Of a DNA stretch of 64,000 nucleotides, positions 5,669-41,268 are shown in pieces. The DNA lies in assembly GCA_019448385.1 (NCBI GenBank), contig JAGTXO010000007.1:1178001-1242000 (forward strand). The letters are read 5' to 3'. This DNA comes from Diacronema lutheri. Taxonomy: Eukaryota; Haptophyta; Pavlovophyceae; Pavlovales; Pavlovaceae. Every line of letters starts with the position of its first letter. The stretch's first letter is position 1. A model generated the notes under the pieces. It saw only the letters and a list, made by a program, of their open reading frames with translations, did not search any database and was not told where the DNA came from. A program made the position numbers and the translations under genes.

Positions 5669-5875
5669 GCCACCCTCGCGCGCGCCGCGCGTGCTCAGCC
5701 TGAAGCGCGTCCCCGGACGCCTACGACGGGCGAATCCACTCAGGACCGCGCTGATGCTCGCCGTTCGGCGCCGTTCGGCGCGTTCGGGCGTTTGTCACCC
5801 GTGCCACCCGCTCGACCGCCACAAGTGCGCGTCCTCCCCTCGACACCGCGGCATTCGGGACGTGCACCCTCCCAC
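5526..5875. repeat. 29-bp inverted duplicate pair (5526-5554 and 5847-5875)
   Basis: The reverse complement of 5526-5554 matches 5847-5875 at 28 of 29 positions. The left arm lies inside the coding exon of the preceding gene, where it encodes RGIRDVHTPT. The right arm is in the spacer upstream of the calponin gene. Confidence 0.85.
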
Positions 5876-6016
5876 ATCAGATTCTGGTCTGGGAGCCATG
5901 GAAATTTCCTGCGTGGCGATCGTCGGCGTGCACTTTCTCAGAAATTTCCTTCTACGGCACGCAGCAGACCCACGCATCGCCCGCCCGCGCCTGCACAAGC
6001 CCTCACGGACACTATC
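5876..6016 (+). promoter_or_regulatory. Promoter region of calponin-homology gene with paired palindromes
   Basis: Contains GGAAATTTCC, a perfect 10-bp palindrome, at 5900-5909, and a second GAAATTTC core at 5941-5948, 41 bp later (about four helical turns), ending about 70 bp before the ATG. Such spacing is compatible with a dimeric regulator site. Function is inferred only from symmetry and position. Confidence 0.35.
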
Positions 6017-6919
6017 ATGTCGACGGCCAGCGAGAAGATTCGGCGTGAGACCAACATCAAGCAGAAGAACGCGGCCAAGGTACGCCCCGAGGACGAGGCC
6101 GAGATGCGCGCGTGGATCACCGAGGTCATCGGCGAGCCGGTCGAGGGCGAGACGCTGCACGATGCGCTCAAATCGGGCGTCGTGCTCTGCAAGCTCGTCA
6201 ACGCGATCAAGCCAGGCGCGATCCCAAAGATCCACCCAGCAATGGCCGTGGCGTTTCGGCAGATGGAGAACATCACCTTCTTCCTCAACGCGTGCAAGGC
6301 TCTCGGCGTCCCATCGTACGACCTCTTCCTCACGCCCGACCTCTACGAGGCCAACGACATGCACGCCGTAATGGGCACCGTTTCGGCGCTCGGCGGTGCG
6401 GCGCGCAAGGTGACAGGGTACAAGGGCCCGGGCTTTGGCGTTGATCGGAGCGCGCGCGCTGGTGTAGGCACCGCCGCCGCGCTCCCCAAGCCCAAGCCAG
6501 CCGCCGCGCCTGCGCCCGTACCTGCCGCCGTGCCGATCGCTGAGGAGGAGGACGAGGCGGCGCCCGAACCTGCAGCCGAGCCCGAGGCGGGGCTTGAGCC
6601 AGTCGTAGCCGAGCCCGAGCCCGTCGCCGAGCCCGAGGCCGAGCCCGCGCCCATCTTCGCCGAGCCCGAGCCCGCCGTTGCCGAGCCCGAGCCCGTCGCC
6701 GCCGAGCCCGAGCCCGCCGCCGCCGAGCCCGAGCCCGTCGCCGCCGAGCCCGAGTTGGTTGCTGCGGAGGCGGGGAGCGCGCCGGCAGCGGAGGAGTCGC
6801 TCGCGTCCAAGCTCTCGGCGCGCCGCCTTGAGCGTGCCGAGGAGCGCGCGTCAGAGCGCGCACAGAAGACCGCGCTCTCGGAGTCGAACATGAACGTCGT
6901 CGAAGGCGTGGCGCAGTGA
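6017..6919 (+). CDS. Calponin-homology (transgelin-type) actin-binding protein
   Basis: An intronless gene of 300 residues. Residues about 20-140 form a single type-3 calponin-homology domain: AEMRAWITEVIGEP, LHDALKSGVVLCKLVNAIKP, ENITFFLNACKALGV, LFLTPDLYEANDMHAVMGTV. These are the signature helices of calponin/transgelin. The C-terminal half is a low-complexity linker with about ten EPEPV/A repeats and a charged helical end (SARRLERAEERASERAQ). No calponin repeats or second CH domain are present. Known role of the family: bundling or stabilising F-actin. The start codon was chosen because MSTASEKIRRETN immediately precedes the domain and upstream codons in the same frame are Arg/Pro junk. 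Confidence 0.85.
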   Translation: MSTASEKIRRETNIKQKNAAKVRPEDEAEMRAWITEVIGEPVEGETLHDALKSGVVLCKLVNAIKPGAIPKIHPAMAVAFRQMENITFFLNACKALGVPSYDLFLTPDLYEANDMHAVMGTVSALGGAARKVTGYKGPGFGVDRSARAGVGTAAALPKPKPAAAPAPVPAAVPIAEEEDEAAPEPAAEPEAGLEPVVAEPEPVAEPEAEPAPIFAEPEPAVAEPEPVAAEPEPAAAEPEPVAAEPELVAAEAGSAPAAEESLASKLSARRLERAEERASERAQKTALSESNMNVVEGVAQ

Positions 6920-7054: not shown

Positions 7055-7911
7055 TCAGCGATGGCCGACCTCGGTCTTGAGCACGCCGGCGATCACATGC
7101 GAGCATGAGGCCATCAACGCGATAACGAACGGCTCCTCGACGAGCAGCGTTTCGGCGCTCGCAAGCTGCCGCGGCGCAAGGGCGCGGACGGCGCGGGCAT
7201 GGCGGCGTCAGGCGCCCGCTCGCCGCGCGCGCGGCGCGCGCGAGTGGTGGCGTGCGCGCGCGACGCGGCGCGCACCACCCAGACGGCGATGGCGGTGATC
7301 GCGTTGCGGTCGCTCAAGTTGATGCCGAATGCGATGGCGACGGCGCCGAGCGTGAGGAAGAGGCCGAGCTGCACCGTCCAGCCGATGTAGAGCCGCGTCT
7401 TGTCCGCCGGGCTGAGCACCTTGGCCGTGCCCGACATCGACTCGTCGCCCACCGAGTACTTGCCCTCGATGCCCTTGGGCGTGCCCGTCGCCGCCTGCAA
7501 GTTGGCGAGATCGAAGATGCCCGCCGCGCCCGCCGCGCCCGCGCCGTCGGCCACGCCCGCAGCAACGGCGTCGGCGGACGGCCTGGTGAAGGCGGACGGC
7601 TTGACGGGCATGATGCGGCTACCGCCGCCGCTCATCGAGCGGGCGGCGGGCGCCACGCCGGCGGCGCCAGCGGTCGCGCCAGCGGTCGCGCCCCGGCGCT
7701 CAGGCGTGATCATCGCCGCGGGCTCAGCTTCGCCATCGGCCGTAACGGGCGGCGCGTTACCCAGGATGCGCGCGGATCGCTGCCGCTCTGGCGCGCCGTC
7801 GCGCGGCACCGTGGCGGGCGGGCTGGGCGGCGGGCTGGGTGGCGGGCTGCTCGAGCGGCTGCGCGGCGGGCTGGGCGGAGGGCTGGGCGGCGGACTGGGC
7901 GTGGGCGCTGC

Positions 7912-7947
<36 letters not shown>

Positions 7948-10900
7948 GCGTGCGGCCGCTGCCGCCGCCTCGCCCGCAGCGCCGGCCGCCACGTCGCGCG
8001 GCGGCGTCGCCGAGACGCGCGAGCGGATCACGTTGGGCGCGTTGGTGGAGATGCGGCCGGGCTGCGGCGTCGGCGCGATCGGCGCGGCCGGCGAAGAGGC
8101 GGCGGCGGCGGCGGCAGGCGGCGGCGGCGTCGGCGCGACGGGCGACCGCGGCGGCAGGCGAAGCGGCGGCGTGGGCAAGCCGGCCGCCGTCGGCACGGCG
8201 CGTGGGATGGGCACAGTCCTGCAGAGCGGGGCGGCGCGGCGGCGCGGGCGGCGCGCGCGTTCAGCGGCGCGTTGGTCGGTCGGGCGATGCGGGGAGCGCG
8301 CGCGCCGCCGGTGGTCGGCGCGGTGCGGCGCGCCGCCCACCTTCCCACGGGCGTGCGTCCGCTGCCGCCGAGCGGCGGCCGCTTCGCCGGCACGCTGCCG
8401 GCGGGCGGCGGCGGCGCCACCGCAGGCTGCGCGCCGCCGTCCGCGCCGGGCGACGGCGTCGTCGGCAGGGCGGCGAGCGCGGGCAGCACGCGCGGCGGCG
8501 ACGCGCCCGCCGTGTTCGCGCCGATGGCCGCGGCGCTGCCCGACGTGTTGAGCTTCTTGGAGAGCTCCCATGGCGGCGGCACGCGCTCACGCTTCATCGT
8601 CGCGGCCGCCATCTCCGCGTCGAGCGCGCGAGAGGACGGGCTGCGCAGCGGCGGGAGCGCGCGCGGCGGCGCGCGCACGTTCGACGAAGCGGCGGCGGCG
8701 GCGGCGGCGGCGGCGGCCGCCGCCGCGCTTGCCGATGCGGCGGCGGCTGCGGCGCGCTGCGCCGACACTTCCCCGCCGGAGACGCGCACGTCCTGCCCGA
8801 AGACGGGCACGCCGATCCGCTCGCGCATCCCGGACGGGACGGGCACACGCCGCTGCACGGGCGTGAACCTTTGCGACGGCGGCGCAGAACCGGACGTGCG
8901 GTCGGCAGCCGACGGCGTGCGCATCGCCGGCTCGGGCGTGCGCGGCTGGTCGCCGTCGGCCGCCGCCGCCGTGGCCGCGCCGCTGTCCGCCGCCGTCGGC
9001 TGCGCGCCGTCGCCGTCGCCGTCGCCGTCCGCCGCGCGCGGCTTGGTCGGCACGCCCGCGCGCGCGAGGCCGCTCGACACACGCGGCACCGTCCGGCCGC
9101 GCGAGTTGCCGGCGGGCGACGCGTCCGCCGTCGGCGCGAGCGACGCGTCCGAGCCGCGGGCGGGCGACTGCACCGCTGACTTGGGCTTGTCCCACTGCTT
9201 CGGGTTGCCCGAGGCGAGCATCGACACCGTGACGATCGCCGCCTGCGCGAGGCGCCACGGCGACGCCGCCCACGTGAGGCGGTAGGCGGCGGCGAAGGCG
9301 AGGCGCGTCAGGTAGAGGAGCGGCGCGAGGATGGCGGAGCAGACGGTCGCGTGCAGGAAGAGCGCGGCGCCGCCCGCGGCGCCGCCGTCGCGCGTGAGCT
9401 GCTCGCCGAGGAGCCACGGGAGCCGCTCGGAGAAGAAGGCCACCTGCAGGCACAGCTGCGCCATCAGCTGCGTGCCAATCGTCTGTACCACCGCCGGCCG
9501 GCGCAGGCCGGGCTCGATCTCGCCGATGGCGACGGCGAGCAGCGACCAGTTGTCCTCGAGCGCGTACGTGACGCGGCTCGCCCACGGCAGTCGCGCCTCG
9601 CCCGGCCGGCGCGCGCTCAGCCGCACCTTGGCCGCGATCGCCGAGCGCCTCGCCGCGCGCTGCAGCCGCGCCGCGTTGCGCGCGCCCGCCGCCACGCGCG
9701 CGTCGCGCGCGGCGGAGAGGCCGACGAGGGCGAGGTCGATGAGCACGAGCGACGCGACGAGCACGATCACCCACAGCGACGTGAAGATGCTCAGGTCGAC
9801 CGCCACCGGCGAGTTGACCGTCACGCCGTCGTCGATGTCGGGCCGCGGCGGCGGCGGGCTCGGCGGCATTGCGCGCCACGTGCGCGCGACGCCAGCAAAG
9901 TCGGAGAGGTGCGGCGACGTGCAGACGAGCGTGCCGTTCCACGCCTGCTCGTACGTGCCAAACTCGGCGACGTTGAGGCCCGGGTTGAGCTCCTGCGGCA
10001 CGTCGCGCCACTCCTCGCCCTCGAGCGAGTAGCTGGCGCACTGCACGTACCGGTCGCACGCCTGCCCGTACCAGCCGTTGCGGCACTCGCAACGGCCGAG
10101 CACGCACGCGCCATTGACGCAGTCGATCGGCTCGGTGCAGTTCGCGTTCGCCGCGATCGCCACCTCCTCGCCCTCCGACGCGGGCGCGCTCAGCGCGTCG
10201 GCGAGCGCCTGCGGCACGGGCAGCGCGACGCGCACGCGTTCGAGCCCCTTGAGGCCGCTCACCGGCAGCTCGCGCCCGTCCGTGTCGGCGAAGAAGAAGG
10301 AGAGCGCCGGCGTGAGCAGCGGCTGTTCGCCGCCGTCGATGCCGTCAAACTCGCCCGCGCGCCACGCGAGCACGTGGTAGCCCACCGTGCCGGTCGCGCC
10401 GACGCCGAGCTTGTCCTCGAGCTGCGTCGAGTCGGGCAACGACACGACGGCGCTGCCGCCCGGCGCGACGAGCGTCGCGCCGCGCAGGTCGAAGCCGAAG
10501 ACGCGCGCGGCGCTGATCGCGAGCGACGGCACGGCGAGCTCGCGCGGCACCTCGCCCGCCAACGCGTCGCCGAGCAGGGTTGGCACGAAGGAGGTCAAGA
10601 CGATGCGCACGAGCTCGGCGCGGACGGCCGCGAAGACGCCGCGCTGGCTCGCGGCGAACGTCACGTTGCCGTCGCGCCCGCCGACGGGCGCGGTGCCGTT
10701 GGCGATGCGCGCGGCGAGCGCCTCGGCCGCAAGCGTCTCGTTGTCGCGTGCGAGCCGGTCGATCTGCGCCTCCGCCGCCTCGGTGTGCGCGGCGGCGCGG
10801 TAGACGGCGCCGATGGCCGCGAGCACGTCCGCCTGCGCCTCGTTCGCCATCCGCTCGGCGGGCAGGAGCGTGTCGAGGATGGCGTCGAGTTGGGTGAGCG

Positions 10901-13900
10901 CGCGCAGCTGCGCGTACGGCTCGGTGAAGCGCGGCTCGAAGAGGAGCACCGACGCGAGCGCGCGCGACGCCATCGCCGCCGACGCGGCGGTGCCCGAGAG
11001 CGTGGCCGACGTCGTGACGAGCACGTCGAGCAGGCCGTTCACGGCCGCGCGCAGCTCGGCGTCGGTGAGCACGAACGCGCTGGCACCGACGCCGCCGTCC
11101 TGCAGCCGGCGCGCGTAGGCCTCGCCCTCGCCTTCGCCCTCGCCCTCGCCGAGCGCACGGCGTGCGCCGCCGCCCGCGCCGCGGCCCTGCGCCTTTTGCA
11201 GCGAGCGCGCCACCGAGCCGAGCAGGCTAAAGGCCTCCGACTGGCGCTGGTCGGACGCGGCGAGTTGCGCGCGCGCGCTCACGTCGGCCAAGACGGCGGT
11301 GGTGTACTCGGGCAAGTCGGTCACGTTGAGCTCCGCCGTGCCCGTTGCGCTCGCGCGGTAAAAGTCAAAGACCTGCACCGTGACCGTATGCGCGCCGGGC
11401 TCGAGGTAGGTGTCAACAAACGTGTCGCCCTCCTCGTCCGAGAGCGTCGACGCGGAGAGCGCGCCGTCCGCGTCGACGGCCGAGTCGGTGAAGCGGTAGA
11501 CGAGCGGCGCGTCCTCGTCGTACCAGCCCGGCGCGCTCAGCTCGAAGAGCGTCGTCATGCCCACGCCCGTCGGCGGCGAGACGACGAGGCCGCCGCCAAA
11601 CGGCGGCCGGTTCACCGTCACGCGGACCGACGCGCCGCCCGAGACGCCGGCGAGCGTCGTCGCGGTAAGCGTGAAGGTGTAGACGCCGCCGGGCACGAGG
11701 ACGAGCGGGCGCAGGCTCAGATTGGGCGACGAATCGCCCGTCAACGACACGTCGGCGCGCGCGAGGTCGGGCGGCGCCTCGTCCGCCGCATCGGACGCCA
11801 CCGCCCACCGGTACGTGAGCCCCGCCCTGCTCACACCCGCCGCACCCGCGAGGCTGCCCTTGAGGCGGAGGCGCGCGTTGGGCGCGAGCTTGCCGTTGGC
11901 GGGCAGCCCGTCCAGCTCGATCGACACGCCCAGCTGCGGGATCGCCTCCACGTCGACGGCCACCGACGCCGTCGACGAGCGGCCGAGCTTGCTCGCGACG
12001 AGCGTGAGCGTGTACCGCCTCGTCGAGCCGTTGGGGTCGGCGGGCAGCGTGCCGGCGGGCAGGCGGAAGCGGCCGCGCGCAGGCAGGCGGAAGCGCTCGA
12101 GCGAGGTGCTGCCGTCGGCGAGAGGCGGCGCGACCGACAGCTCGAGTGCGAGCGGTGCCAACGCGTCCTTCGCGTCGCTCGGGTCGAAGGAGGGCGACAC
12201 GTCGATGTCGAGCGCCGCGCTCGCGCCGAGCGTCCGCACCGAGCCGCCGCGGAACGCGACAAAGATTGGCTCGGAGGCGACGCGCACGTCGATCGTCTGC
12301 GTCGCGTTGACGAGCGGCGCCGTGCTCATCGCCACGACGAGCCGGAAGGTGTACGTGCGGCCCGGCGCGAGCGCGAGCGCGGGCACGGCGAGCGAGCTGC
12401 TGAGCGACGACGCGAGCGTCGCCGCCACGGCCGGCGGCAGCGCCGCGTCGCCGCTCAGCGGCTCGCCGGTGGCCGTGACGGCGGTGCGCACGTGCGACCA
12501 GCGGAAGATGAGCGCGCCGCTCGCCGGCGAGCACCGCGCCCGCGACGCCGTCGCGTGGATGAGCAGCGGCAGCGACGGGCGGTAGTCGAGGACGGAGGGC
12601 GCGTCAAAGGCGATGCGTGGCACCTCCGCCTCCGCGCGCACGACCTCCCAGCGCACGAGCTGCGAGGCGCGGCCGAGGAAGTTTGAGACGCGGAGCAGAA
12701 AGGTGAAGCGCCGCCACTCGTAGGGCAGCCCGCTCGTCTCGCCGAGCTGCACGAGCGGCGACGTCGCCGGCAGCGCGCGCAGCGCCGCGTTCACCGTCTG
12801 CGCAAAGTCGGAGACGGACGGGTCGACCGCCCACGTGTAGCTGAGCGGCTTGATCCCGCCGCCGGTCGAGCTCGACGCGTCGAGGCGGAGGACCTCGCCG
12901 CGGCAGCTCGAGAGCGCGCGCGCGCCCGCGAGCGACACCTGCGGCACGGGGCATGGCTCGTCGCCGCACGGGAAGTCGGCCGAGACGACGACCGCCGACG
13001 CGCGCGCCAGCTTGTCCGCGCCCGCCGGCGCGGCGGGCGCGACGCGGCCGGCGGCGAGGCCGACGCGCATGCCGGGCGCGGCGGACGTGGCCGCGGTGAG
13101 CAGCGCGACGAGCGTCGTGTCGTCGCGCCAGAAGCACGCCGGCGCGGCGCGTGACGTGCCGCGCAGCAGCTCGACCGTCGCGCCATCGAGCGCCGCCGCG
13201 CACGGCCGCACGGCCGAGCCCATGCCCGCGCGGTTGGTCGGCTGCGGGTCGAAGGCGACGAGCAGCGTCGTGCCCGTCGGGTCGAAGCGCGCGCCGACCA
13301 GCACGGGCGCGTGCAGCCCGACGTAGCGCACGCGCGCCGCGTCCTGGCCGCGGTGCCAGTCGACGCCGCCGTTGAGCGAGATCGCGAGCGCCGTCTCGGC
13401 GCCGGTGCCAAGGTCCGAGCCGTACGGCGCGAGGACGGTCACGTTCGCCGCGGGCACGCCGGACGCGCCGCCGTCGGCGGGCGGCGCCGCCGCGCCCGGC
13501 TCGCCAAAGCGCACGCGCACGAGCGCGCCCAGGCCGGCGGAGAAGCGCGAGAGGCCGTCGAAGCCGCCGCCGAAGACGACGAGACGGTCGCCGCCCTCCG
13601 CGTTGATGAGCACGGCGTCCTGCAGTCGGCGGCGCTCGCCTGCCGCCGCGTCGGCCGCCGCGCCCTCCTTGCCCTCGGCCGCGAGGAGGCGGCGGCCGCC
13701 GCCGGCGGCGAGCGCGACGCCGTCAACGGTCGGCGCGTCGTAGTAGTAGAAGGCGACCGACGTGGCCGACACGGAGCCGCTCGCGCCGCCGTTGAGCGTC
13801 GCGCGCACGCTCGCCGCGCCCGACGCGCCTGCGGCGGGCGCGATGCAGCGCAGTCGCGCGCCGACGCTCGTGCCGCCGATCGCGGGCAGCAGCTCGGCCG

Positions 13901-16900
13901 CAACGAGCGTCTGCACGCCGAGCGGGTCGGCGAAGAGGCAGCCGAGCTGGCCGTCGCCAAAGAAGCGCAGGCCGTCGCCCGCCACCTCGACGGGCGTGCC
14001 GCCGCCGACGGGCCCGCCGGCGGGCTCGACCGACCTCACGTCCACGTCGCCGGGCGCGTAGAGCTCAAAGTCGATCGGCTCGAAGAAGAAGGGGTCGTAA
14101 TGGAAGCCGCCATTCAGCGAGAGGGACACCTCGTACCGGCCGACGCCCGCCGCCTCGACGGGCGGCGCGGCGCAGACGGCGGTGCCGGCCGCCGCGTCGA
14201 TGAGCGCGGCGGTGCGCACGAAGGAGCCGCCGGCGGCGAGCGCGGTGAAGCGGCAGACCGCCGCGCCGCCGCCGTCCGCGTCGCGCAGGTCGACGAAGCC
14301 ACGGCCCGTGATCGTCAGCGCCGACGGCGAGCCGAGCGGGCCGCCGAGCGGGAAGCCTCCGTCGACGATCGCGTTGTACAGCGTGAAGGTCGGGCCGGTC
14401 GCGAGGTCGGTGAACGTGTCGCCGTCGAGCGAGACGGCGAGCCGCGCGACCGCCGTGTTGCCGACGCCGCGCGGCGGCACGTAGGCGAGCGGCGCGACAA
14501 GGTCGGCGAGGCCCACGTCCGGCATCGAGCCGGCCGTCGCCTGCGGCGCGGCACCGTCGACGGACGTGCGGAGCGTCAGCCGGTTGAGGTCGATGTACGC
14601 GTTCGTCGACGCCGCGCCGATTTCGTAGCCGTGCACCGTCACGCGCGTGTCGAGCAGGCCCTGCGGCGCGCCGGCGGGCGTGACACGCAGCGCGCGAATC
14701 GAGTTGCGCGTGTAAAAGGTGTACGTGTTGAGCACGGAGACGGCGTCGCACACGCTCGCGTCGAGCTCGTCGCGCGAGCAGCCGTGCGCCTGCAGCGAGA
14801 GCGTGAGCTGCCCGCCCTGCGGCTGCGCCGACGGCGACGCGCACACGAGCCGGTCGGGCGCGGCGCTGACGAGCGCCGTCGTCCGGTTGCCGTTCCACGC
14901 GCCGAAGACGCACGAGACGCTCGACGCGAAGCCCTGCAGCCGCGCGGCGGCGGCGCGCGCGCTCGACGACGCCCACTCGATCGCCCGATCGCTGCCGCCC
15001 TCGCCGCCGCGGCCAAAGCCCGTGCCGAAGAGCGTGATGAGCGTCGACGCGCCGAGCGCCGCGCCGGTCGGCGCGATCGCGCTCACGTCCATCGTCGCAA
15101 AGGGGTTGGCCGAGACGGTGACGGAGAGCGTCGACGCGTCGAACTGCGCCCACGGCAGGCTGCCAAACTGGTAGCAGAGCACCGCGCCCGACATGAGGTT
15201 TGCAAAGGTGAACGAGGCGCGCAGCCCGTCGCCGACCGTCGCGATCGCGCCCGCAAACTCGTCGCCCGTGTCGCCGAGCTCGGCGAGCTCGGCGCACGAG
15301 CCGGGCGTGTCGCGCAGCACGGACGGTGTGCGCGGCCGCGCGATCGTGTAGTCCTCGCGGTCGGGCAGCAGCCAGCGCGCGCGGTCGCCCGGCGCGAGGC
15401 GCACGCCGCCAAACGTGACGACGCGCACGGGCGCGACGACCGCCGACGTGACGCCGGCGATCGTCAGGCGCGGCGCGCTCACCTCGTGGTGGAGCGCGCG
15501 CATCGCCGCGTACAGCTTGTACGGCTCGCCCGAGAAGGCGTAGCAGAGCGGCAGCACGCCGTCGGCGGCGGACGAGGCGCCGAGCAGCGGCGTGAACGTT
15601 GTCGAGCCGGCAACGATGAGCCGCTCGCCGCCGCGCACCGCCGAGAAGGGCGTGCAGCCGGCGAGCGGGCAGGTGCAGCTCGTCGAGCCGGCGGCGGCCC
15701 AGAAGGCCGAGTCGCCGTTCGCGACGCCCGTGCCGTTGAAGAAGACGCGCTGCTGCACGTTCGCCACCGTGAGCACCTCGAGCGACGGCAGCGCGGCGAG
15801 GCCGGCCGTCGCACCGATCCCGACGAGCTCGCACACCGTCACCGCGACGGCCGGGTAGAGGCGCAGGCCGCGGCCGCGGAAACTGTAGCAGAGCTGCAGC
15901 GTCTCCGCCGCCGACGTCGGCGTGTACCGGAACGTCGCGACGAGGCCGCTTGGCGCGGGCGCGAGCTCGAGCGGCCCGCCCCACCGGCTTGACGCGCCAG
16001 ACGAGCATGGCTGGCCGCGCTGCACCCAGAAGCCCTCGTCGAGCGCCGAGATGCCAAAGCCCGCGACGGCGCCGTCCTCACGCACGTTGACGACGGCCTT
16101 GCTGCGCGTCGGCCCGGTCAGGTCCGCCGCCGTCGCCGTCGCGAACGCGTAGCGCACCCATGCCGAGAAGCCGCCGCGCGCCGGCCGCTTGAAGCGGTAG
16201 CAGAGGACGAGGGCCTGCGAGCCGCTCGTGAAGAGGAAGGGCGCGTCGCCGCGCTCGGTGACCGTCTGCAGCGCGCCCGTCTCGGCGCCGTTCTCGTCGA
16301 CGCCCGCGTGGCCTGATGGCGCGCCCTCGCACGAGCGCTCGGGCCGCACCCACTTGGCGCCGTCGCCGCGCTTGACGCCGAGGCCGGTAAAGGCGACGGT
16401 CTCGGCGACGCCGACGACGGCGAACGTCGCGTTCGTCGGGCCGAGCAGCTCGTAGCCCGTGGCGGTCACGGTCGGGTAGCGCTTGAACGGCTCGTCGCGG
16501 AACTGGTAGCACAGCTGCAGCTCGGCCACGCCGCGCGCGAGCGTGAGCTGCAAGCGCGAGTTCACGACGGCCAGGACGCCACCAAACGCTGGGTCGGCGA
16601 GCGCGCGCTCGCACGCGTCGCCGTCGGACGGCGGCGCCCAAAAGGCCTCGTCGCCGTCGGTGACGCCAAAGCCGACGAGCTCGATCACGTCGGGCACGCC
16701 CGCCACCAGCTCGAAGCGCTGCCCCGCCTCGACGATCTCGAAGACGGCGAGCCGCACGTCCGCGAAGAGGAAGGGCTCCTCGCCCGCGAACGTGAAGCAC
16801 AGCACCGCGTAGCCCGTCGGCGAGGCGGCGGTCGTGGCGGTGAAGCGCCAGGTTGCGTTGCCCGACGGCTGCACGACTGCGTCGCCGCCGTACGCCGCGA

Positions 16901-19900
16901 TGCCGCTCGGTGCGGCACACGCCGCCTCGTCGCCCGCGTCGACCCACCGCGCCGTGTCGCCGGGCATGATGCCGACGCCGCGCAGCGCGAGCGACTCGTC
17001 GACGTTCACGACGCCGATCGACGAGGCGGGCCCGCTCACGGTGAGCGTGGTCAGTGTAAAGCCAGGCACGCCCACAAAGAGTGCGTCCGGGTACCCCGTG
17101 TGCAGGTAGCACAGCGCGAGGCCCTCCTCGGCGCGGTCCGGCGCAAACGCTGCGTTGAGCTCGGCCGAAAGCGGCTGCACGCCGCCATAGCGCAGGCCGT
17201 AGAGCACGGCGTACTCGGCCGCTCGCACGCACGGCGCGCCGGCGGGCACCCACGCCGCCCTGTCGCCCGCGACGAGCCCGACGCCCGCGAAGCTGACGTT
17301 GAGGCTCAGGCCAGCGATGAGGCGCAGGTTGCCGCCCGCGCCCGCCACGCCCGTCACCGCACGCACATCCGCGCGCGTCTCGACGTAGGGCACAAAGGCG
17401 CGCGAGAGGCGGTCGCCAAAGCGGTAGCAGAGCTCGCGCGCGCCCGTCGCATTAAAGGTCGTCACGCCCGACGCCGCGTCGACGAGGCCGGGCACGGGCG
17501 AAACGTCGGCCTGCGGCGCGCCGGCCGCGGCCGCGGCCGCGCACGCCTCGTGCGCGCACGCGCGGTAGCTGGTGCTGTCGGCGGCGACGCCGCAGGCGGC
17601 CAGGACGGTGCCCTGCGCGGGCCATACGGCAAGGTCCGGCCGCACGCGCAGCCCGGACTGCAGCCCCGTGCCGAGCAGCCGGAGCGCGACCGGCACGCCC
17701 GACGCTGCGACAGTCCGGCCCGCGTCGACGGTCCGGACGTCGACGAACGCCGGACCGAAAATGCGCACGCCGGACGTGCCGTTGGCGGGCGGAACAAGCG
17801 CGACGATGCACACGCGCAGCCCGATCGCCGCCCGCCGCGCGAGCAGCGTGACCGTCCCGTTCTGCACAGGCAGCAGGCCGCCAAGCTCGGCGCTCGGCGC
17901 CTGCGCGATGCACTGCACAGCGGACGGCACGTCAGGCGCGAGGTAGACCGACTCGCCGTCGGCGGGCAGCTCGTTCGAGCCATCGAGGACGGCGAGGCGC
18001 AGGTCGAGCGACTCCGGCTGCAAGAGCACCGCCGCGAAAGTGAAACCGTCGCGCGGCGGCGGGCTCGGCGGCGCCGGCGGCGGCGGGTTTGGCGGCGGCG
18101 GGCGCGGCGACGGTGGCGGCGGGCTGGGTGGCGGCGGCGGCAGCGGCGGTGGGGGAAGCGGCGGCGGCAAGCTCGGCGGCGGAGGAGACGGCGGCGGGGG
18201 CGGCTTGGGCGGGCTCGGCGGCGGCAGCGGGCTCGGTGGAGGCGGGCTGGGCGGCGGTGGCGGCGTCGGAGGCGGCGGCGGCGGCAGGCTGGGCGGCGGC
18301 GGTGGGAACGGCAAGAAGCGAGGCGGCGGAGGCGGCGGGCTAGGCGGCGGGCTGGGCGGCGGGCTGGGCGGCGGACTTGGCGGCGGGCTTGGCGGCGGGC
18401 TTGGCGGCGGGCTTGGCGGCGGGCTGGGCGGCGGGCTGGGCGGCGGGCTCGGCGGCGGGCTGGGCGGTGGGCTTGGCGGCGGGCTGGGTGGCGGGCTAGG
18501 CGGCGGGCTGGGCGGCGGGCTGGGCGGCGGGCTGGGCGGCGGGCTGGGCGGCGGGCTGGGCGGCGGGCTGGGCGGCGGGCTGGGCGGCGGGCTGGGCGGC
18601 GGGCTTGGCGGTGGTGACGGCGGCGGGCTGGGCGGCGGGCTGGGCGGCGGTGACGGCGGGGGGCTGGGCGGTGGCGACGGGGGCGGGCTGGGCGGCGGGC
18701 TGGGCGGCGGGCTGGGCGGCGGACTTGGCGGCGGGCTGGGCGGCGGGCTAGGCGGCGGGCTGGGCGGTGGGCTGGGCGGTGGCGACGGCGGCGGGCTGGG
18801 CGGTGGCGACGGCGGCGGGCTTGGCGGCGGGCTTGGCGGCGGGCTTGGCGGCGGGCTTGGCGGCGGGCTGGGCGGCGGGCTGGGCGGCGGGCTGGGCGGC
18901 GGCGAAGGAGGTGGACTGGGCGGCGGCGGGCTGGGCGGCGGGCTGGGCGGCGGGCTTGGAGGCGGGCTGGGCGGGGGCGACGGCGGCGGGCTGGGCGGTG
19001 GCGACGGCGGGGGGCTTGGCGGCGGGCTTGGCGGTGGGCTGGGCGGCGGACTCGGCGGCGGGCTAGGCGGCGGGCTGGGCGGCGGGCTGGGCGGTGGTGA
19101 CGGCGGCGGACTTGGCGGCGGACTTGGCGGCGGACTTGGCGGCGGGCTGGGCGGCGGGCTGGGCGGCGGGCTGGGCGGCGGGCTAGGCGGCGGCGAAGGA
19201 GGTGGACTGGGCGGCGGCGGGCTGGGCGGCGGGCTGGGCGGTGGTGACGGCGGCGGGCTGGGCGGCGGGCTGGGCGGCGGGCTGGGCGGTGGTGACGGCG
19301 GCGGGCTGGGCGGCGGGCTGGGCGGCGGTGACGGCGGGGGGCTGGGCGGCGGTGACGGCGGCGGGCTGGGCGGCGGGCTTGGCGGCGGGCTGGGTGGCGG
19401 GCTAGGCGGCGGGCTGGGCGGCGGGCTTGGCGGCGGGCTGGGCGGCGGGCTTGGCGGCGGGCTTGGCGGAGGGCTGGGCGGCGGGCTGGGCGGCGGGCTG
19501 GGCGGCGGGCTGGGCGGCGGGCTGGGCGGCGGGCTGGGCGGAGGACTGGGTGGCGGGCTGGGAGGCGGGCTGGGCGGCGGGCTTGGCGGCGGGCTTGGCG
19601 GCGGGCTCGGCGGCGGGCTTGGCGGCGGACTGGGCGGCGGGCTAGGCGGCGGGCTTGGTGGCGGACTTGGCGGCGGGCTCGGCGGCGGGCTTGGCGGCGG
19701 ACTGGGCGGCGGGCTAGGCGGCGGGCTTGGCGGCGGGCTTGGCGGCGGGCTGGGTGGCGGGCTGGGCGGTGGGCTGGGCGGCGGGCTGGGCGGCGGGCTT
19801 GGCGGCGGGCTTGGCGGCGGGCTTGGCGGCGGGCTTGGCGGCGGACTGGGCGGCGGGCTGGGCGGCGGGCTGGGCGGTGGGCTGGGCGGCGGTGACGGCG

Positions 19901-22900
19901 GCGGGCTGGGCGGCGGGCTGGGCGGCGGGCTGGGCGGCGGGCTGGGCGGCGGGCTGGGCGGCGGGCTGGGCGGCGGGCTGGGCGGCGGGCTGGGCGGCGG
20001 GCTGGGCGGCGGGCTGGGCGGCGGGCTGGGCGGCGGGCTGGGCGGTGGTGACGGCGGCGGGCTGGGCGGCGGGCTGGGCGGCGGTGACGGCGGGGGGCTG
20101 GGCGGTGGCGACGGGGGCGGGCTGGGCGGCGGGCTGGGCGGCGGACTGGGCGGCGGACTTGGCGGCGGGCTTGGCGGCGGGCTTGGCGGCGGGCTGGGCG
20201 GCGGGCTTGGCGGCGGGCTCGGTGGCGGACTGGGCGGCGGGCTCGGCGGCGGACTTGGCGGCGGGCTTGGCGGCGGGCTAGGCGGCGGGCTTGGCGGCGG
20301 GCTGGGCGGCGGGCTGGGTGGCGGGCTTGGCGGCGGGCTTGGCGGCGGGCTTGGCGGCGGGCTTGGCGGCGGGCTGGGCGGCGGGCTTGGCGGCGGGCTT
20401 GGCGGAGGACTGGGCGGCGGGCTGGGCGGTGGGCTGGGCGGTGGTGACGGCGGCGGGCTGGGCGGCGGGCTGGGCGGTGGTGATGGCGGCGGGCTGGGCG
20501 GCGGGCTGGGCGGTGGCGACGGCGGAGGGCTTGGCGGCGGGCTTGGCGGCGGGCTTGGCGGCGGGCTTGGCGGCGGGCTTGGCGGCGGGCTCGGCGGCGG
20601 CGATGGCGGAGGGCTCGGCGGCGGACTGGGCGGCGGGCTCGGCGGCGGGCTAGGCGGCGGGCTTGGCGGCGGGCTGGGCGGCGGGCTAGGTGGCGGGCTA
20701 GGCGGCGGGCTTGGCGGCGGGCTTGGAGGCGGGCTTGGCGGAGGACTGGGCGGCGGGCTGGGCGGCGGGCTGGGCGGTGGGCTGGGCGGTGGTGACGGCG
20801 GCGGGCTGGGCGGCGGGCTGGGCGGTGGTGATGGCGGCGGGCTGGGCGGCGGGCTGGGCGGTGGCGACGGCGGAGGGCTTGGCGGCGGGCTTGGCGGCGG
20901 GCTGGGCGGCGGGCTGGGCGGCGGGCTTGGCGGCGGGCTCGGTGGCGGACTGGGCGGCGGGCTCGGCGGCGGACTTGGCGGCGGGCTTGGCGGCGGGCTA
21001 GGCGGCGGGCTTGGCGGCGGGCTGGGCGGCGGGCTGGGTGGCGGGCTTGGCGGCGGGCTTGGCGGCGGGCTTGGCGGCGGGCTTGGCGGCGGGCTGGGCG
21101 GCGGGCTTGGCGGCGGGCTTGGCGGAGGACTGGGCGGCGGGCTGGGCGGTGGGCTGGGCGGTGGTGACGGCGGCGGGCTGGGCGGCGGGCTGGGCGGTGG
21201 TGATGGCGGCGGGCTGGGCGGCGGGCTGGGCGGTGGCGACGGCGGAGGGCTTGGCGGCGGGCTTGGCGGCGGGCTTGGCGGCGGGCTTGGCGGCGGACTT
21301 GGCGGCGGGCTTGGCGGCGGGCTGGGCGGTGGACTCGGCGGCGGGCTTGGCGGCGGGCTGGGCGGCGGCGATGGCGGAGGGCTCGGCGGCGGACTGGGCG
21401 GCGGGCTCGGCGGCGGGCTGGGCGGCGGGCTTGGTGGCGGGCTTGGCGGCGGGCTTGGAGGAGGGCTGGGCGGAGGGCTGGGCGGCGGGCTGGGCGGAGG
21501 CGACGGCGGAGGGCTTGGCGGCGGGCTGGGCGGCGGGCTGGGTGGCGGGCTGGGCGGCGGGCTGGGCGGTGGGCTTGGTGGCGGGCTGGGCGGCGGGCTT
21601 GGAGGAGGGCTGGGCGGAGGGCTGGGCGGCGGGCTGGGCGGTGGCGACGGCGGAGGGCTTGGCGGCGGGCTGGGCGGCGGGCTGGGCGGTGGACTCGGCG
21701 GCGGGCTTGGCGGCGGGCTGGGCGGCGGCGATGGCGGAGGGCTCGGCGGCGGACTGGGCGGCGGGCTCGGCGGCGGGCTGGGCGGCGGGCTTGGTGGCGG
21801 GCTTGGCGGCGGGCTTGGAGGAGGGCTGGGCGGAGGGCTGGGCGGCGGGCTGGGCGGAGGCGACGGCGGCGGGCTGGGCGGCGGGCTGGGCGGCGGGCTC
21901 GGCGGTGGGCTTGGTGGCGGGCTTGGTGGCGGGCTGGGCGGCGGGCTCGGTGGCGGGCTCGGTGGCGGGCTGGGCGGCGGGCTGGGCGGCGGGCTGGGCG
22001 GCGGGCTTGGCGGGGGCGACGGCGGAGGGCTTGGCGGCGGACTAGGCGGCGGGCTGGGCGGCGGGCTGGGCGGCGGGCTGGGCGGCGGGCTGGGCGGCGG
22101 GCTGGGTGGCGGGCTTGGCGGGGGCGACGGCGGCGGGCTGGGCGGCGGGCTTGGCGGCGGGCTCGGCGGCGGGCTAGGTGGCGGGCTTGGCGGCGGGCTT
22201 GGTGGCGGGCTGGGCGGCGGGCTCGGCGGCGGGCTTGGCGGTGGTGACGGCGGCGGGCTGGGCGGCGGGCTGGGCGGTGGTGATGGCGGCGGGCTGGGCG
22301 GCGGGCTGGGCGGCGGACTCGGCGGCGGGCTTGGCGGCGGGCTGGGCGGCGGGCTGGGCGGAGGACTTGGTGGCGGGCTGGGTGGCGGACTTGGCGGCGG
22401 ACTTGGCGGCGGACTTGGCGGCGGGCTTGGCGGCGGGCTTGGCGGCGGGCTGGGTGGCGGGCTGGGCGGCGGGCTTGGAGGCGGGCTTGGCGGCGGGCTT
22501 GGCGGCGGGCTTGGCGGCGGGCTCGGCGGCGGGCTGGGCGGCGGGCTTGGCGGGGGCGACGGCGGCGGGCTGGGCGGCGGGCTTGGCGGCGGGCTCGGCG
22601 GCGGGCTGGGCGGCGGACTTGGCGGTGGTGATGGTGGTGGGCTTGGCGGCGGCGATGGCGGCGGGCTGGGCGGCGGGCTGGGCGGCGGCGATGGCGGCGG
22701 GCTGGGCGGCGGGCTGGGCGGCGGGCTGGGCGGCGGGCTAGGCGGCGGCGACGGCGGCGGGCTGGGCGGCGGGCTGGGCGGCGGGCTGGGCGGCGGGCTG
22801 GGCGGCGGGCTGGGCGGCGGGCTGGGCGGCGGGCTGGGCGGCGGGCTGGGCGGCGGGCTGGGCGGCGGGCTGGGCGGCGGGCTGGGTGGCGGGCTGGGTG

Positions 22901-25900
22901 GCGGGCTTGGCGGCGGGCTTGGCGGCGGGCTGGGCGGCGGGCTGGGCGGCGGGCTGGGCGGCGGGCTGGGCGGCGGGCTGGGCGGCGGGCTGGGCGGCGG
23001 GCTGGGCGGCGGGCTGGGCGGCGGGCTGGGCGGTGGGCTAGGCGGCGGGCTGGGCGGCGGGCTCGGTGGCGGGCTTGGCGGCGGGCTTGGTGGCGGGCTG
23101 GGCGGTGGTGACGGCGGCGGGCTGGGCGGCGGGCTGGGCGGCGGGCTTGGTGGCGGGCTGGGCGGTGGACTGGGTGGCGGGCTGGGTGGCGGCGATGGCG
23201 GCGGCGACGGCGGCGGACTTGGCGGTGGGCTAGGCGGCGGGCTGGGCGGCGGGCTAGGCGGCGGGCTGGGTGGCGGGCTGGGTGGCGGGCTCGGCGGCGG
23301 GCTTGGCGGCGGGCTGGGCGGCGGGCTGGGCGGCGGGCTGGGCGGTGGCGAGGGCGGGGGGCTTGGCGGCGGGCTTGGCGGGGGCGACGGCGGAGGGCTC
23401 GGCGGCGGGCTCGGCGGCGGGCTCGGTGGCGGGCTGGGCGGCGGGCTGGGCGGCGGGCTCGGCGGCGGGCTTGGCGGCGGACTGGGCGGCGGGCTAGGCG
23501 GCGGGCTTGGCGGCGGGCTTGGAGGCGGGCTTGGCGGAGGACTGGGCGGCGGGCTGGGCGGCGGGCTGGGCGGTGGGCTGGGCGGCGGTGACGGCGGCGG
23601 GCTGGGCGGCGGGCTGGGCGGCGGGCTGGGCGGCGGGCTGGGCGGCGGGCTGGGCGGCGGGCTGGGCGGCGGGCTTGGTGGCGGGCTAGGCGGTGGTGAC
23701 GGCGGCGGGCTGGGCGGCGGGCTGGGCGGCGGGCTGGGTGGCGGGCTTGGTGGCGGGCTGGGCGGTGGACTGGGCGGCGGGCTGGGTGGCGGCGATGGCG
23801 GCGGCGACGGCGGCGGGCTTGGTGGCGGGCTGGGCGGCGGGCTGGGCGGCGGGCTGGGCGGTGGCGAGGGCGGGGGGCTTGGCGGCGGGCTTGGCGGGGG
23901 CGACGGCGGAGGGCTCGGCGGCGGGCTCGGCGGCGGGCTCGGTGGCGGGCTCGGCGGCGGGCTAGGCGGCGGGCTGGGCGGCGGGCTTGGCGGCGGGCTG
24001 GGCGGCGGGCTGGGCGGCGGGCTGGGCGGTGGCGAGGGCGGGGGGCTTGGCGGCGGGCTTGGCGGGGGCGACGGCGGCGGGCTTGGCGGCGGGCTCGGCG
24101 GCGGGCTCGGTGGCGGGCTCGGCGGCGGGCTCGGCGGCGGGCTGGGCGGCGGGCTGGGCGGCGGGCTGGGTGGCGGGCTGGGCGGCGGGCTGGGCGGCGG
24201 GCTGGGCGGCGGGCTGGGCGGCGGGCTGGGCGGCGGGCTGGGCGGTGGGCTGGGCGGCGGGCTTGGCGGCGGGCTTGGCGGCGGGCTTGGCGGCGGGCTT
24301 GGCGGCGGGCTTGGCGGCGGGCTTGGCGGCGGGCTGGGCGGTGGGCTGGGCGGTGGCGAAGGCGGTGGCGAGGGCGGGGGGCTTGGCGGCGGGCTTGGCG
24401 GAGGCGACGGCGGAGGGCTGGGCGGCGGGCTCGGTGGCGGGCTCGGTGGCGGGCTCGGTGGCGGGCTCGGTGGCGGGCTCGGTGGCGGGCTGGGCGGCGG
24501 GCTGGGCGGCGGGCTTGGCGGCGGGCTTGGCGGCGGGCTTGGCGGCGGGCTCGGCGGCGGGCTTGGCGGCGGGCTCGGCGGCGGGCTCGGCGGTGGCGAC
24601 GGCGGCGGACTCGGCGGCGGGCTGGGTGGCGGGCTCGGCGGCGGGCTCGGCGGCGGGCTAGGCGGAGGCGACGGCGGAGGGCTTGGCGGTGGGCTAGGCG
24701 GCGGGCTGGGCGGCGGGCTGGGCGGCGGGCTGGGCGGCGGGCTGGGCGGCGGGCTGGGCGGCGGGCTGGGCGGCGGGCTGGGCGGCGGGCTTGGCGGCGG
24801 GCTTGGCGGCGGGCTGGGCGGCGGGCTTGGCGGCGGGCTGGGCGGCGGGCTGGGCGGTGGCGAGGGCGGGGGGCTTGGCGGCGGGCTTGGCGGGGGCGAC
24901 GGCGGAGGGCTGGGCGGCGGGCTCGGCGGCGGGCTCGGTGGCGGGCTCGGTGGCGGGCTAGGTGGCGGGCTGGGCGGCGGGCTGGGCGGCGGGCTTGGTG
25001 GCGGGCTGGGCGGCGGGCTTGGTGGCGGGCTGGGCGGCGGGCTTGGTGGCGGGCTTGGTGGCGGGCTTGGTGGCGGGCTGGGCGGTGGCGAGGGCGGCGG
25101 GCTTGGCGGCGGGCTTGGCGGCGGGCTTGGCGGCGGGCTAGGCGGCGGGCTGGGCGGCGGGCTGGGTGGTGGGCTCGGCGGCGGGCTCGGCGGTGGACTA
25201 GGCGGCGGGCTGGGCGGCGGGCTCGGTGGTGGTGACGGCGGCGGGCTTGGCGGAGGGCTAGGCGGCGGGCTGGGCGGCGGACTGGGCGGCGGGCTGGGCG
25301 GTGGACTCGGTGGTGGGCTGGGCGGCGGGCTGGGCGGCGGGCTTGGCGGCGGGCTTGGCGGCGGGCTGGGCGGCGGACTCGGTGGCGGGCTCGGCGGCGG
25401 GCTCGGCGGTGGACTGGGCGGCGGGCTGGGCGGCGGACTCGGCGGTGGCGACGGCGGCGGGCTTGGCGGAGGGCTGGGTGGCGGGCTAGGCGGCGGGCTG
25501 GGCGGCGGGCTGGGCGGCGGGCTTGGCGGCGGGCTAGGCGGCGGGCTGGGCGGCGGGCTAGGAGGTGGTGACGGCGGCGGGCTGGGCGGCGGGCTGGGCG
25601 GCGGGCTGGGCGGCGGGCTTGGCGGCGGGCTGGGCGGCGGGCTTGGCGGCGGGCTGGGCGGCGGGCTGGGTGGCGGGCTCGGCGGCGGGCTTGGCGGCGG
25701 GCTTGGCGGCGGGCTTGGCGGCGGGCTTGGCGGCGGGCTTGGCGGCGGGCTTGGCGGCGGGCTTGGCGGCGGGCTTGGCGGCGGGCTAGGCGGCGGGCTG
25801 GGCGGCGGGCTGGGCGGTGGCGAGGGCGGGGGGCTTGGCGGCGGGCTTGGCGGTGGACTGGGTGGCGGGCTGGGTGGCGGCGACGGCGGCGGGCTCGGTG

Positions 25901-28900
25901 GCGGGCTCGGTGGCGGGCTCGGTGGCGGGCTGGGCGGCGGGCTGGGCGGCGGGCTGGGCGGTGGACTCGGTGGTGGGCTGGGCGGCGGGCTTGGTGGCGG
26001 GCTCGGTGGCGGGCTGGGTGGCGGACTGGGCGGCGGGCTGGGCGGCGGGCTAGGAGGTGGTGATGGCGGCGGGCTTGGCGGCGGGCTGGGCGGCGGACTG
26101 GGCGGTGGTGACGGCGGTGGGCTGGGCGGCGGCGATGGCGGCGGGCTCGGCGGCGGGCTCGGCGGTGGTGACGGCGGCGGGCTTGGCGGCGGGCTTGGCG
26201 GCGGGCTCGGCGGCGGGCTGGGCGGCGGGCTGGGCGGCGGGCTTGGTGGCGGGCTTGGCGGCGGGCTTGGTGGCGGGCTGGGCGGCGGGCTGGGCGGCGG
26301 GCTAGGCGGCGGGCTGGGCGGCGGGCTGGGCGGCGGGCTTGGCGGCGGGCTTGGCGGCGGGCTTGGCGGCGGGCTTGGTGGCGGGCTTGGCGGCGGGCTT
26401 GGCGGCGGGCTGGGCGGCGGGCTGGGCGGCGGGCTAGGCGGCGGGCTGGGCGGCGGGCTTGGCGGCGGGCTTGGCGGCGGGCTAGGCGGCGGGCTGGGCG
26501 GCGGGCTGGGCGGCGGGCTGGGCGGCGGGCTGGGCGGCGGGCTGGGCGGCGGGCTTGGCGGCGGGCTGGGTGGCGGGCTGGGCGGCGGGCTGGGCGGCGG
26601 GCTGGGCGGCGGGCTTGGCGGCGGGCTTGGCGGCGGGCTTGGCGGCGGGCTGGGCGGCGGGCTGGGCGGCGGGCTGGGCGGCGGGCTGGGCGGCGGGCTG
26701 GGCGGCGGGCTGGGCGGCGGGCTGGGCGGCGGGCTTGGCGGCGGGCTTGGCGGCGGACTTGGCGGCGGGCTTGGTGGCGGGCTTGGCGGCGGGCTTGGCG
26801 GCGGGCTGGGCGGCGGGCTGGGCGGCGGGCTGGGCGGCGGGCTGGGCGGCGGGCTGGGCGGCGGGCTGGGCGGCGGGCTGGGCGGCGGACTGGGCGGCGG
26901 GCTTGGCGGCGGACTTGGCGGCGGGCTTGGCGGCGGGCTTGGTGGCGGGCTGGGCGGCGGGCTGGGCGGCGGGCTGGGCGGCGGGCTTGGTGGCGGGCTT
27001 GGCGGCGGGCTTGGTGGCGGGCTGGGCGGTGGTGACGGCGGCGGACTGGGCGGCGGGCTGGGCGGTGGACTGGGTGGCGGGCTGGGTGGCGGCGACGGCG
27101 GCGGCGACGGCGGCGGGCTTGGCGGCGGGCTAGGCGGCGGACTGGGCGGCGGGCTGGGCGGCGGGCTAGGCGGCGGGCTGGGCGGCGGGCTTGGCGGCGG
27201 GCTGGGCGGAGGCGACGGCGGAGGGCTCGGCGGCGGGCTAGGCGGCGGGCTGGGCGGCGGGCTTGGCGGCGGGCTGGGCGGAGGCGACGGCGGAGGGCTC
27301 GGCGGCGGGCTTGGCGGCGGGCCGGGTGGCGGCGACGGCGGCGGGCTTGGCGGCGGGCTGGGCGGCGGGCTGGGCGGCGGGCTGGGCGGAGGCGACGGCG
27401 GCGGGATGGGCGGCGGGCTTGGCGGCGGGCTAGGCGGCGGGCTGGGCGGCGGGCTGGGCGGCGGGCTAGGCGGTGGGCTTGGCGGCGGGCTTGGCGGCGG
27501 ACTTGGCGGCGGGCTTGGCGGCGGGCTTGGCGGCGGGCTGGGCGGCGGGCTGGGCGGCGGACTAGGCGGAGGGCTCGGTGGAGGTGAGGGTGGGGGCGGG
27601 CTGGGCGGCGGGCTGGGCGGTGGGCTAGGCGGCGGGCTGGGCGGAGGGCTCGGTGGCGGTGGGCTCGGCGGCGGGCTCGGCGGCGGGCTCGGCGGCGGGC
27701 TCGGCGGCGGGCTCGGCGGCGGCGGGCTCGGCGGCGGACTCGGCGGAGGGCTCGGCGGCGGCGAGGGTGGCGGCGGGCTGGGCGGCGGGCTGGGCGGCGG
27801 GCTTGGCGGCGGGCTTGGCGGCGGCGGGCTCGGCGGGGGGCTCGGCGGCGGGCTGGGCGGCGGGCTGGGCGGTGGCGGGCTAGGCGGCGGGCTGGGGGGC
27901 GGGCTGGGCGGCGGCGATGGCGGGGGTGACGGCGGCGGTGGGCTTGGTGGCGGGCTGGGCGGAGGGCTCGGCGGCGGAGATGGCGGCGGGCTGGGTGGCG
28001 GCGGGCTTGGCGGCGGGCTGGGCGGCGGGCTTGGCGGTGGGCTCGGAGGCGGTGGACTGGGCGGCGGGCTCGGCGGAGGGCTCGGCGGAGGGCTCGGCGG
28101 TGGCGAGGGCGGTGGCGGGCTGGGCGGCGGGCTGGGCGGCGGGCTGGGCGGAGGGCTCGGCGGTGGAGACGGTGGCGGCGGGCTGGGAGGTGGGCTCGGC
28201 GGCGGGCTGGGCGGCGGAGAGGGTGGCGGCGGGCTCGGCGGCGGGCTCGGCGGCGGGCTGGGCGGCGGCGAGGGTGGCGGCGGGCTTGGCGGTGGGCTCG
28301 GCGGAGGGCTCGGCGGCGGGCTGGGTGGCGGCGGGCTGGGCGGCGGGCTGGGCGGCGGGCTCGGCGGCGGGCTCGGCGGCGGTGGACTGGGCGGCGGGCT
28401 GGGCGGCGGGCTCGGCGGAGGGCTCGGCGGTGGCGAGGGCGGCGGCGGGCTGGGCGGCGGGCTGGGCGGCGGGCTGGGCGGCGGGCTTGGCGGCGGGCTT
28501 GGCGGCGGCGGGCTCGGCGGTGGGCTCGGCGGTGGGCTCGGCGGCGGGCTAGGCGGTGGCGGGCTAGGCGGCGGGCTGGGGGGCGGGCTGGGCGGCGGCG
28601 ATGGCGGGGGTGACGGCGGCGGTGGGCTTGGTGGCGGGCTGGGCGGAGGGCTCGGCGGCGGAGATGGCGGCGGGCTGGGTGGCGGCGGGCTGGGCGGCGG
28701 GCTGGGCGGCGGGCTCGGCGGGGGGCTCGGCGGCGGTGGACTGGGCGGCGGGCTGGGCGGCGGGCTCGGCGGAGGGCTCGGCGGTGGCGAGGGCGGCGGC
28801 GGGCTGGGCGGCGGGCTGGGCGGAGGGCTGGGTGGAGGGCTCGGCGGTGGAGACGGTGGCGGCGGGCTGGGCGGTGGGCTCGGCGGCGGGCTCGGCGGCG

Positions 28901-29255
28901 GCGAGGGTGGCGGCGGGCTCGGCGGCGGGCTCGGCGGCGGGCTGGGCGGCGGCGATGGCGGCGGCGACGGCGGTGGTGGGCTTGGCGGCGGACTTGGCGG
29001 CGGGCTGGGCGGCGGGCTTGGTGGTGGGCTCGGCGGCGGCGGGCTCGGCGGCGGGCTGGGCGGCGGGCTCGGCGGGGGGCTCGGCGGTGGCGGGCTCGGC
29101 GGCGGGCTGGGCGGCGGGCTGGGCGGCGGGCTGGGCGGCGGCCGCGGCTGGGCGGCCGTGACTGACGCGAGCGCAATGAAGCTGACGAGCACCAACCACG
29201 GGCGCGCTCGCCTTGGCCAGCGCGTGCGCGCGCTCACCGCGTCGGCGATCGCCAT
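7055..29255 (-). CDS. Giant SPPP-stalk REJ/GPS polycystin-1-like membrane receptor (about 7,322 aa)
   Basis: Exons 29255-8341, 8218-7276 and 7165-7055 join in frame. The introns are 8219-8340 (GTGGGC...CAG) and 7166-7275 (GTGCGC...CAG); without them the C-terminus is nonsense. Order: signal peptide ending SFIALASVTAAQ; (SPPP)n to residue about 3640; irregular Pro-rich to 3735; about eight modules of roughly 100 aa with GDxAxW...LCYxF (3740-4720); IPT/TIG-like domains (SAIAPTGAALGASTLITLFG and following, 4720-5330); REJ-like region (CRGEVLRLDASSSTGG to VNRPPFGGGLVVSP, 5440-5890); EGF (CVNGACVLGRCECRNGWYG, about 6375); GPS motif CTSPHLSDFAGV (about 6450); TM1; two TMs in a polycystin-like block with DNWSLLAVAIG; low-complexity cytoplasmic loop; TM4 and TM5 (YIGWTVQLGLFLTLGAVAIA and VIALMASCSHVIAGVL). 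The polycystin channel half and PLAT domain are absent. Likely a cell-surface adhesion or mating/sensory receptor held out on a hydroxyproline-rich rod. Confidence 0.85.
18325..29150. repeat. 10.8-kb coding (SPPP)n tandem repeat
   Basis: The + strand reads as GGGCTGGGCGGC-type dodecamers; the minus strand codes Ser-Pro-Pro-Pro about 900 times. Two zones are visible. About 27,590-29,150 (N-terminal) has SPPPP inserted every three or four units. About 19,200-27,590 is almost pure SPPP, with single Ile and Gly interruptions near 27,400 and 27,320. Differences between units fall mostly at third codon positions. Longer blocks of about 360, 680 and 720 bp are duplicated inside it (see findings). 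The + strand is an extreme G-quadruplex-prone tract. Confidence 0.95.
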
Positions 29256-29434
29256 CGAGGCGAGCTCGCGCAGTTACTCCTCGGCCCTGCTGCCCTTGTG
29301 GCCACGAGAAGGCGGCGCCCAAAATAGCATTAGTGGAAACCGACGTTTGTAACCCGGAGGTCCCGGATAAACGTCTGTAACCGACGCGCATCGCAAGTCA
29401 GTTTAGAGAAAACTTTTTTGAGTGCTTCACATAT
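29256..29434 (-). promoter_or_regulatory. Promoter region of the giant receptor gene
   Basis: Contains GCCCAAAATAG at 29317-29327 (CTATTTTGGGC in gene orientation), 62-72 bp upstream of the ATG. The same 11-mer lies upstream of the polymerase eta gene in the same orientation. Two related elements, CGTTTGTAAC and CGTCTGTAAC, lie near 29344 and 29372. Confidence 0.35.
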
Positions 29435-39574: not shown

Positions 39575-39691
39575 CGCTGACGCGTGCAGGAATGCACTGC
39601 CCCCCCCCCCACCCTCTCCCCCTCTCCCCCTCTTTGCGACTTGAGCTCAGGTTTGGTTGTGGTGCATGACTTCCAGCCGCCATGGACGGCA

Positions 39692-41224: not shown

Positions 41225-41268
41225 TTTACCAGCAGGGCTGAAAACAGAAAAAGGAAATTAGAACAGTG

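Follow-up and report, generated by a model that had tools for sequence, protein, structure and literature searches.

Does a single gene join a proline rod of several thousand residues to a polycystin-1-like receptor, and what might such a protein do? This question is raised by a locus of the haptophyte Diacronema lutheri, which we analysed in a window of 64,000 nucleotides (the whole stretch of DNA under analysis; G000:C5:1178001-1242000) and against the genome it comes from (43,492,796 bases in 103 contigs). The GC content of the window ranges from 70 to 86% in 2-kb blocks. A minus-strand frame (8028..29273) is open across 7,081 codons, and the rod-receptor gene starts in it with the ATG at 29255 and would reach its stop at 7055 after splicing. 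Third-position GC is highest in the main frame down to ~8.3 kb and in a second frame after that, with a third frame modestly highest near the end. From this frame switch and the GT..AG ends, two introns were placed (Table 1), and the 7,322-residue, two-intron model proposed by the first-pass annotation for 7055..29255 could thus be rebuilt as a predicted protein. Its parts are, in order, a signal peptide, the rod, Ig-like modules, TIGs, REJ, a sub-threshold EGF, a degenerate GPS and five hydrophobic segments. One open frame spans the rod-receptor junction. Because the paralogs on contigs C3 and C92 also hold signal peptide, rod, modules and REJ in a single open frame, the earlier view that rod and receptor belong to one gene is supported. 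Elsewhere in the window, an upstream ORF (29679-32972, minus strand) has a weak match to the reverse-transcriptase family RVT_1 below cut-off (E 5.2e-4) and is possibly a retroelement remnant, tandem arrays occupy 38880-39587 (a 21-nt unit repeated 24.8 times, with 5- and 25-nt units adjoining), and the plus-strand ORFs 41242-42615 and 47642-49015 correspond to septin and sulfotransferase.

Table 1. Coordinates of the rod-receptor gene and its parts (positions in the window; aa, residues of the predicted protein).
Feature	Position	Strand	Remark
Whole gene	7055..29255	-	3 exons (29255-8341, 8218-7276, 7165-7055); 7,322 aa; predicted splicing
Signal-peptide-like N terminus, aa 1-36	29148..29255	-	hydropathy; resembles that of the C3 paralog
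(SPPP)n rod, aa 43-3735	18051..29129	-	3,693 residues, without Cys or Tyr
8 or 9 tandem Ig-like modules, aa 3736-4720	15096..18050	-	first two are the most divergent
TIG/IPT region, best stretch aa 5073-5165	13320..15095	-	outer bounds by eye
REJ domain, aa 5622-5980	11316..12392	-	PF02010
EGF-like segment	10053..10139	-	PF23106, below curated cut-off
Degenerate GPS	9885..10043	-	two Cys and HLS triplet; remnant includes CTSPHLSDF
TM1	9711..9779	-	hydropathy
TM2	9426..9491	-	paralog alignment; under hydropathy cut-off
TM3	9285..9365	-	hydropathy
Intron 1	8219..8340	-	122 nt, GT..AG, predicted
TM4	7321..7389	-	hydropathy
TM5	7079..7302	-	split by intron 2
Intron 2	7166..7275	-	110 nt, GT..AG, predicted

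The rod, first estimated at ~3,600 residues, runs for 3,693 in an unbroken frame without frameshift. It consists of 2,777 Pro, 899 Ser and 17 other residues (16 when the counted span starts one residue earlier); at its longest, (SPPP)n is unbroken for 675 units, and no Pro run exceeds 6. Non-majority codons are used for 1,026 of the 2,777 prolines (37%), and Ser is encoded by AGY as well as TCN codons. Because the Pro codons vary in this way and residues other than Pro and Ser make up <0.5% of the rod, the open frame cannot be attributed to chance. In the 675-unit stretch, 54 different 12-mers code for SPPP and 26% of neighbouring units are identical (base, 16%), which argues against a recent expansion of the array. 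That Pro codons vary this much in an array whose Ser/Pro composition is nearly constant suggests that the peptide is under selection. The rod of the C3 paralog shows 17 non-Ser/Pro residues among 2,483, with 36% of its Pro codons non-majority, and that of C92 is looser (212 of 2,084 residues); the window rod is the longest and purest among the rods measured. Its SPPP backbone is of the hydroxyproline-rich glycoprotein (HRGP) type, and the prolines are probably hydroxylated and glycosylated. The hydroxyproline O-arabinosyltransferase (HPAT) family (PF23452) gave 23 exon matches with a best E of 1.7e-99, so that hydroxyproline arabinosylation is plausible, whereas the 41 genome matches of 2OG-FeII_Oxy_3 count for little because this family is broad (two bacterial genomes among 14 controls contain it as well). 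HPAT matches fall at about nine places, among them C82, C98, C9, C14, C97, C47 and C50.

Because the N-terminal signal peptide directly precedes the rod, the rod would lie outermost; judged from the order of parts, it is the distal tip, and the receptor carries the rod rather than the reverse. The earlier picture of a receptor raised on a stalk is thus abandoned, since a rod directly following the signal peptide lifts no receptor off the membrane. As a polyproline-II helix, the rod could project ~1.1 μm outward: scaled by the calibration from the Chlamydomonas protein MST3, its 3,693 residues correspond to 1,145 nm with the theoretical MST3 length and to 1,257 nm with the measured one.

In the receptor base, the expected REJ and TIG domains both pass the Pfam cut-offs (PF02010, E 7.4e-38, 130.7 bits against a cut-off of 25; PF01833, E 1.4e-8, 2 stretches). 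The Ig-like modules have no sequence family in Pfam or the PDB, and their name comes from fold searches with the AF2 prediction of one module (pLDDT 92.5). The EGF match to PF23106 (E 6e-4 and 1.4e-4) is below the curated cut-off, the former reaching 20.3 bits against 24.3. The annotated GPS survives as a remnant, whereas PF01825, with 10 matches in the genome, has none in the window gene or at C3. GPS is matched in five of the seven aligned family members, the window gene not being among them, and its degeneration in the window gene and C3 makes cleavage doubtful. With the family profile, the best sequence matches in the PDB were Reelin for the EGF part (E 1.7e-5) and adhesion GPCRs for the GPS part (E 2.5e-4). 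All five annotated membrane segments were recovered as hydrophobic stretches, TM2 by paralog alignment. In adhesion GPCRs, the GPS is followed by a 7TM bundle; no 7TM Pfam family was matched by the seven members, whose aligned piece ends before TM4, and five hydrophobic segments were seen in total. The layout from TM1 to TM5 is similar to that of polycystin-1, and by this layout the membrane segments may be related to it; polycystin-1 was not listed in two PDB searches with the profiles A1 and A2. The reported lack of PLAT and of the channel half is borne out by the profiles: PLAT has no match in the window gene and a sole genome match at C4:907826-908131, and none of the 23 PF08016 and 4 PF20519 genome matches is on contig C5. 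Moreover, there is no room for downstream channel exons, because a convergent neighbouring ORF (4970-6919, plus strand), which has a CH domain, ends 135 bases from the stop.

The fusion of rod and receptor is not unique to the window gene. A genome search with REJ gave at least 20 matches, grouped into at least 17 loci; among the 10 of these 17 at which ORFs were read, 9 have a Pro-rich segment and one (C33) lacks it. Under one density rule, the longest Pro-rich stretches are those of the window gene (3,719), C3 (2,514) and C92 (1,896), followed by shorter ones in C4a1 (427), C4b (417), C4a2 (280) and C37 (226). C56 and C30 bear SPPP rods with broken frames; the C56 rod (L034, L036) has an internal RRPRRRP stretch followed by SPPP again, with two frame shifts that are either real or assembly errors. 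The tips also differ. An FG-GAP domain lies ahead of the rod in C4b (E 1.9e-16), a sub-threshold lectin-like segment in C4a1, C4a2 and C37, and, by eye, a short Cys-containing segment in C56; no head domain precedes the rod in the window gene, C3 and C92, where it directly follows the signal peptide. C3, with an identical order of parts, is the closest paralog: the 10-gene tree built on 730 residues around REJ unites it in one clade with the window gene (support 100/99), the two being identical at 40% of 675 columns and separated by a tree path of ~2 changes per column. That the two share their layout yet have diverged so far indicates an old rod-receptor fusion; a single origin of the headless rods is not shown by this 10-gene REJ tree. 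C4a1 and C4a2 are neighbouring REJ genes (C4:55146-89537) that share a strand, are nearly identical and have very short tree branches. On the cytosolic side, an IQ motif occurs in one of the seven aligned members (E 0.013), and EF-hand-like sequence is seen by eye in paralogs. Two GPS matches, C6:950729-950836 and C78:388013-388162, have no accompanying REJ match.

Candidate channels are present elsewhere in the genome. Four loci match both Polycystin_dom (PF20519) and PKD_channel (PF08016), out of the 23 PF08016 matches, and short stretches of two PKD2-like loci look PKD2-type in the membrane part by eye. One PKD2-like locus (C29:621444-622418, plus strand) has a REJ/GPS gene ~8 kb away, on the minus strand (C29:630235-631947).

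The best reading of these results, to which we give a probability of roughly 0.45, is a mechanosensory or adhesive surface whisker that works with a separate PKD2-like channel in trans. Prey contact and flagellar adhesion, which the first-pass annotation put forward, may also be among its roles. The protein would stand in the surface with its N terminus outside, its first 3,693 mature residues forming a free polyproline-II rod of ~1.1 μm that projects from a receptor base in which Ig-like, TIG, REJ and EGF-like parts are followed by five membrane segments. Its site on the cell surface would most likely be the cilium or the haptonema, and it would act in the manner of MST3; the reading as a ciliary hair is drawn from analogy with that protein. 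Drag or contact would be passed by the rod to the receptor base, and the base, together with a PKD2-like channel from another gene, would let calcium enter; a single helix of 1 μm may, however, bend instead of acting as a lever. The flagella of Pavlovales (Pavlovophyceae) carry fine hairs, and our literature search on the hairs of Pavlovophyceae flagella found no paper. The available part of the D. lutheri genome paper describes cells of ~five microns that have two flagella and a short haptonema, and PMC10341766, in its accessible part, mentions knob scales for Pavlovophyceae.

A structural role would do without signalling: the glycosylated rod would form a protective or spacing brush in the glycocalyx and the base would be its anchor. 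The headless tip, the absence of Tyr and Cys from the longest and purest rod measured, and the degenerate GPS all agree with such a bristle. Nevertheless, we consider it rather unlikely, since a mere anchor would need one membrane pass, whereas the window protein has kept REJ, TIG and five membrane segments, and paralogs bear cytosolic sequence of IQ (one of seven members, E 0.013) and, by eye, EF-hand-like type. That the protein is a receptor for gamete or partner recognition, with glycans on the rod serving flagellar adhesion while the REJ base signals as in gametes, seems to us unlikely. Chlamydomonas agglutinins share the long polyproline shafts. In Ectocarpus, a protein with REJ, GPS and TMs (Esi0130_0068) is male-gamete specific and positively selected, according to the accessible part of PMC4700764. 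Against this, the rod tip is headless in the window gene, C3 and C92, REJ at 17 loci is many for a mating pair, and a mating-adhesion role of Chlamydomonas mastigonemes has been refuted, as cited in the available part of PMC11015965.

Long repeats are hard to assemble and the rod frame is broken in C56 and C30, so two adjacent genes or a mis-assembled repeat might have been taken as one ORF. This would be very surprising, because the rod-receptor junction is crossed by one open frame, the order of parts is identical in C3 and C92, and the PacBio subread N50 of 23.5 kb, as given in the available part of the D. lutheri genome paper, exceeds the 11 kb of the rod.

Our results suggest that a second algal lineage has joined long proline rods to polycystin-type receptors, and such coupling would support the view that extracellular hairs or tethers convey force to polycystins, which read it. 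The window protein would offer a single-molecule rod with a predicted length of >1 μm, and paralogs with differing rod lengths and tips make the effect of lever length on sensing directly testable. A further-reaching proposal is that haptophytes independently evolved a polyproline-polycystin mechanosensory hair, in which the rod is joined to the polycystin-1-like half (the PKD2 half in green algae), PKD2-like channels complete the sensor in trans, and the rod serves as a ruler whose length is set genetically and varies from paralog to paralog; we regard this as possible but somewhat unlikely.

How does this architecture compare with known systems? Chlamydomonas sexual agglutinins have long polyproline shafts, and extensins and pherophorins have a Pro-rich HRGP shaft; none of these is known to have a REJ or polycystin-type membrane part. 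With the polycystin-1/sea urchin REJ family, the window protein shares REJ and the EGF-like and GPS-like segments before TM1, but it differs in having no PLAT or channel half, a degenerate GPS, and an added rod and Pfam-less Ig-like modules. An algal combination of REJ, GPS and several TMs is also found in Ectocarpus Esi0130_0068 (1,427 aa, 6 or 7 predicted TMs), for which the accessible part of PMC4700764 mentions no rod.

The first-pass annotation knew of no comparable protein, but a described analogue exists: MST3 (Cre06.g309951), the core protein that anchors the mastigonemes, the hairs of Chlamydomonas cilia; the window protein resembles it without being identical to it. In the available part of its description, MST3 has 8,572 aa and a 429-residue N-terminal polyproline that explains the thin filament at the distal end (146 nm on average, 133 nm in theory); mastigonemes are absent in mst3 mutants, a complex of its PKD2-like membrane domain with SIP and three PKD2 is proposed, and its authors compare it with human PKD1 (PMC11015965). 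The word REJ does not occur in the main text of that paper. According to the same part, seven other C. reinhardtii proteins have large ectodomains and incomplete PKD domains, all but one with polyproline-rich regions; the fold of their membrane portion is PKD2-like but incomplete, and SIP is predicted to complete it (PMC11015965). As far as that description goes, the window protein and MST3 are both giant HRGPs with a polyproline behind the signal peptide (by hydropathy only in the window gene) as distal tip and a polycystin-type membrane end, and the window protein would, like MST3, be incomplete without a partner. MST3 alone has C-type lectins, the PKD2-like (channel) domain and 42 proline-rich repeats, around which MST1 lies, whereas the window gene carries REJ, proline repeats of the SPPP type only, and five membrane segments without a channel; repeats of the P13/P11(XXP)3 type described for MST3 are absent from its rod, and the gene has no PF08016 or PF20519 match. 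In MST3 a polyproline is joined to a PKD2-like domain; in the window gene, a rod is joined to the complementary half, the polycystin-1-like receptor.
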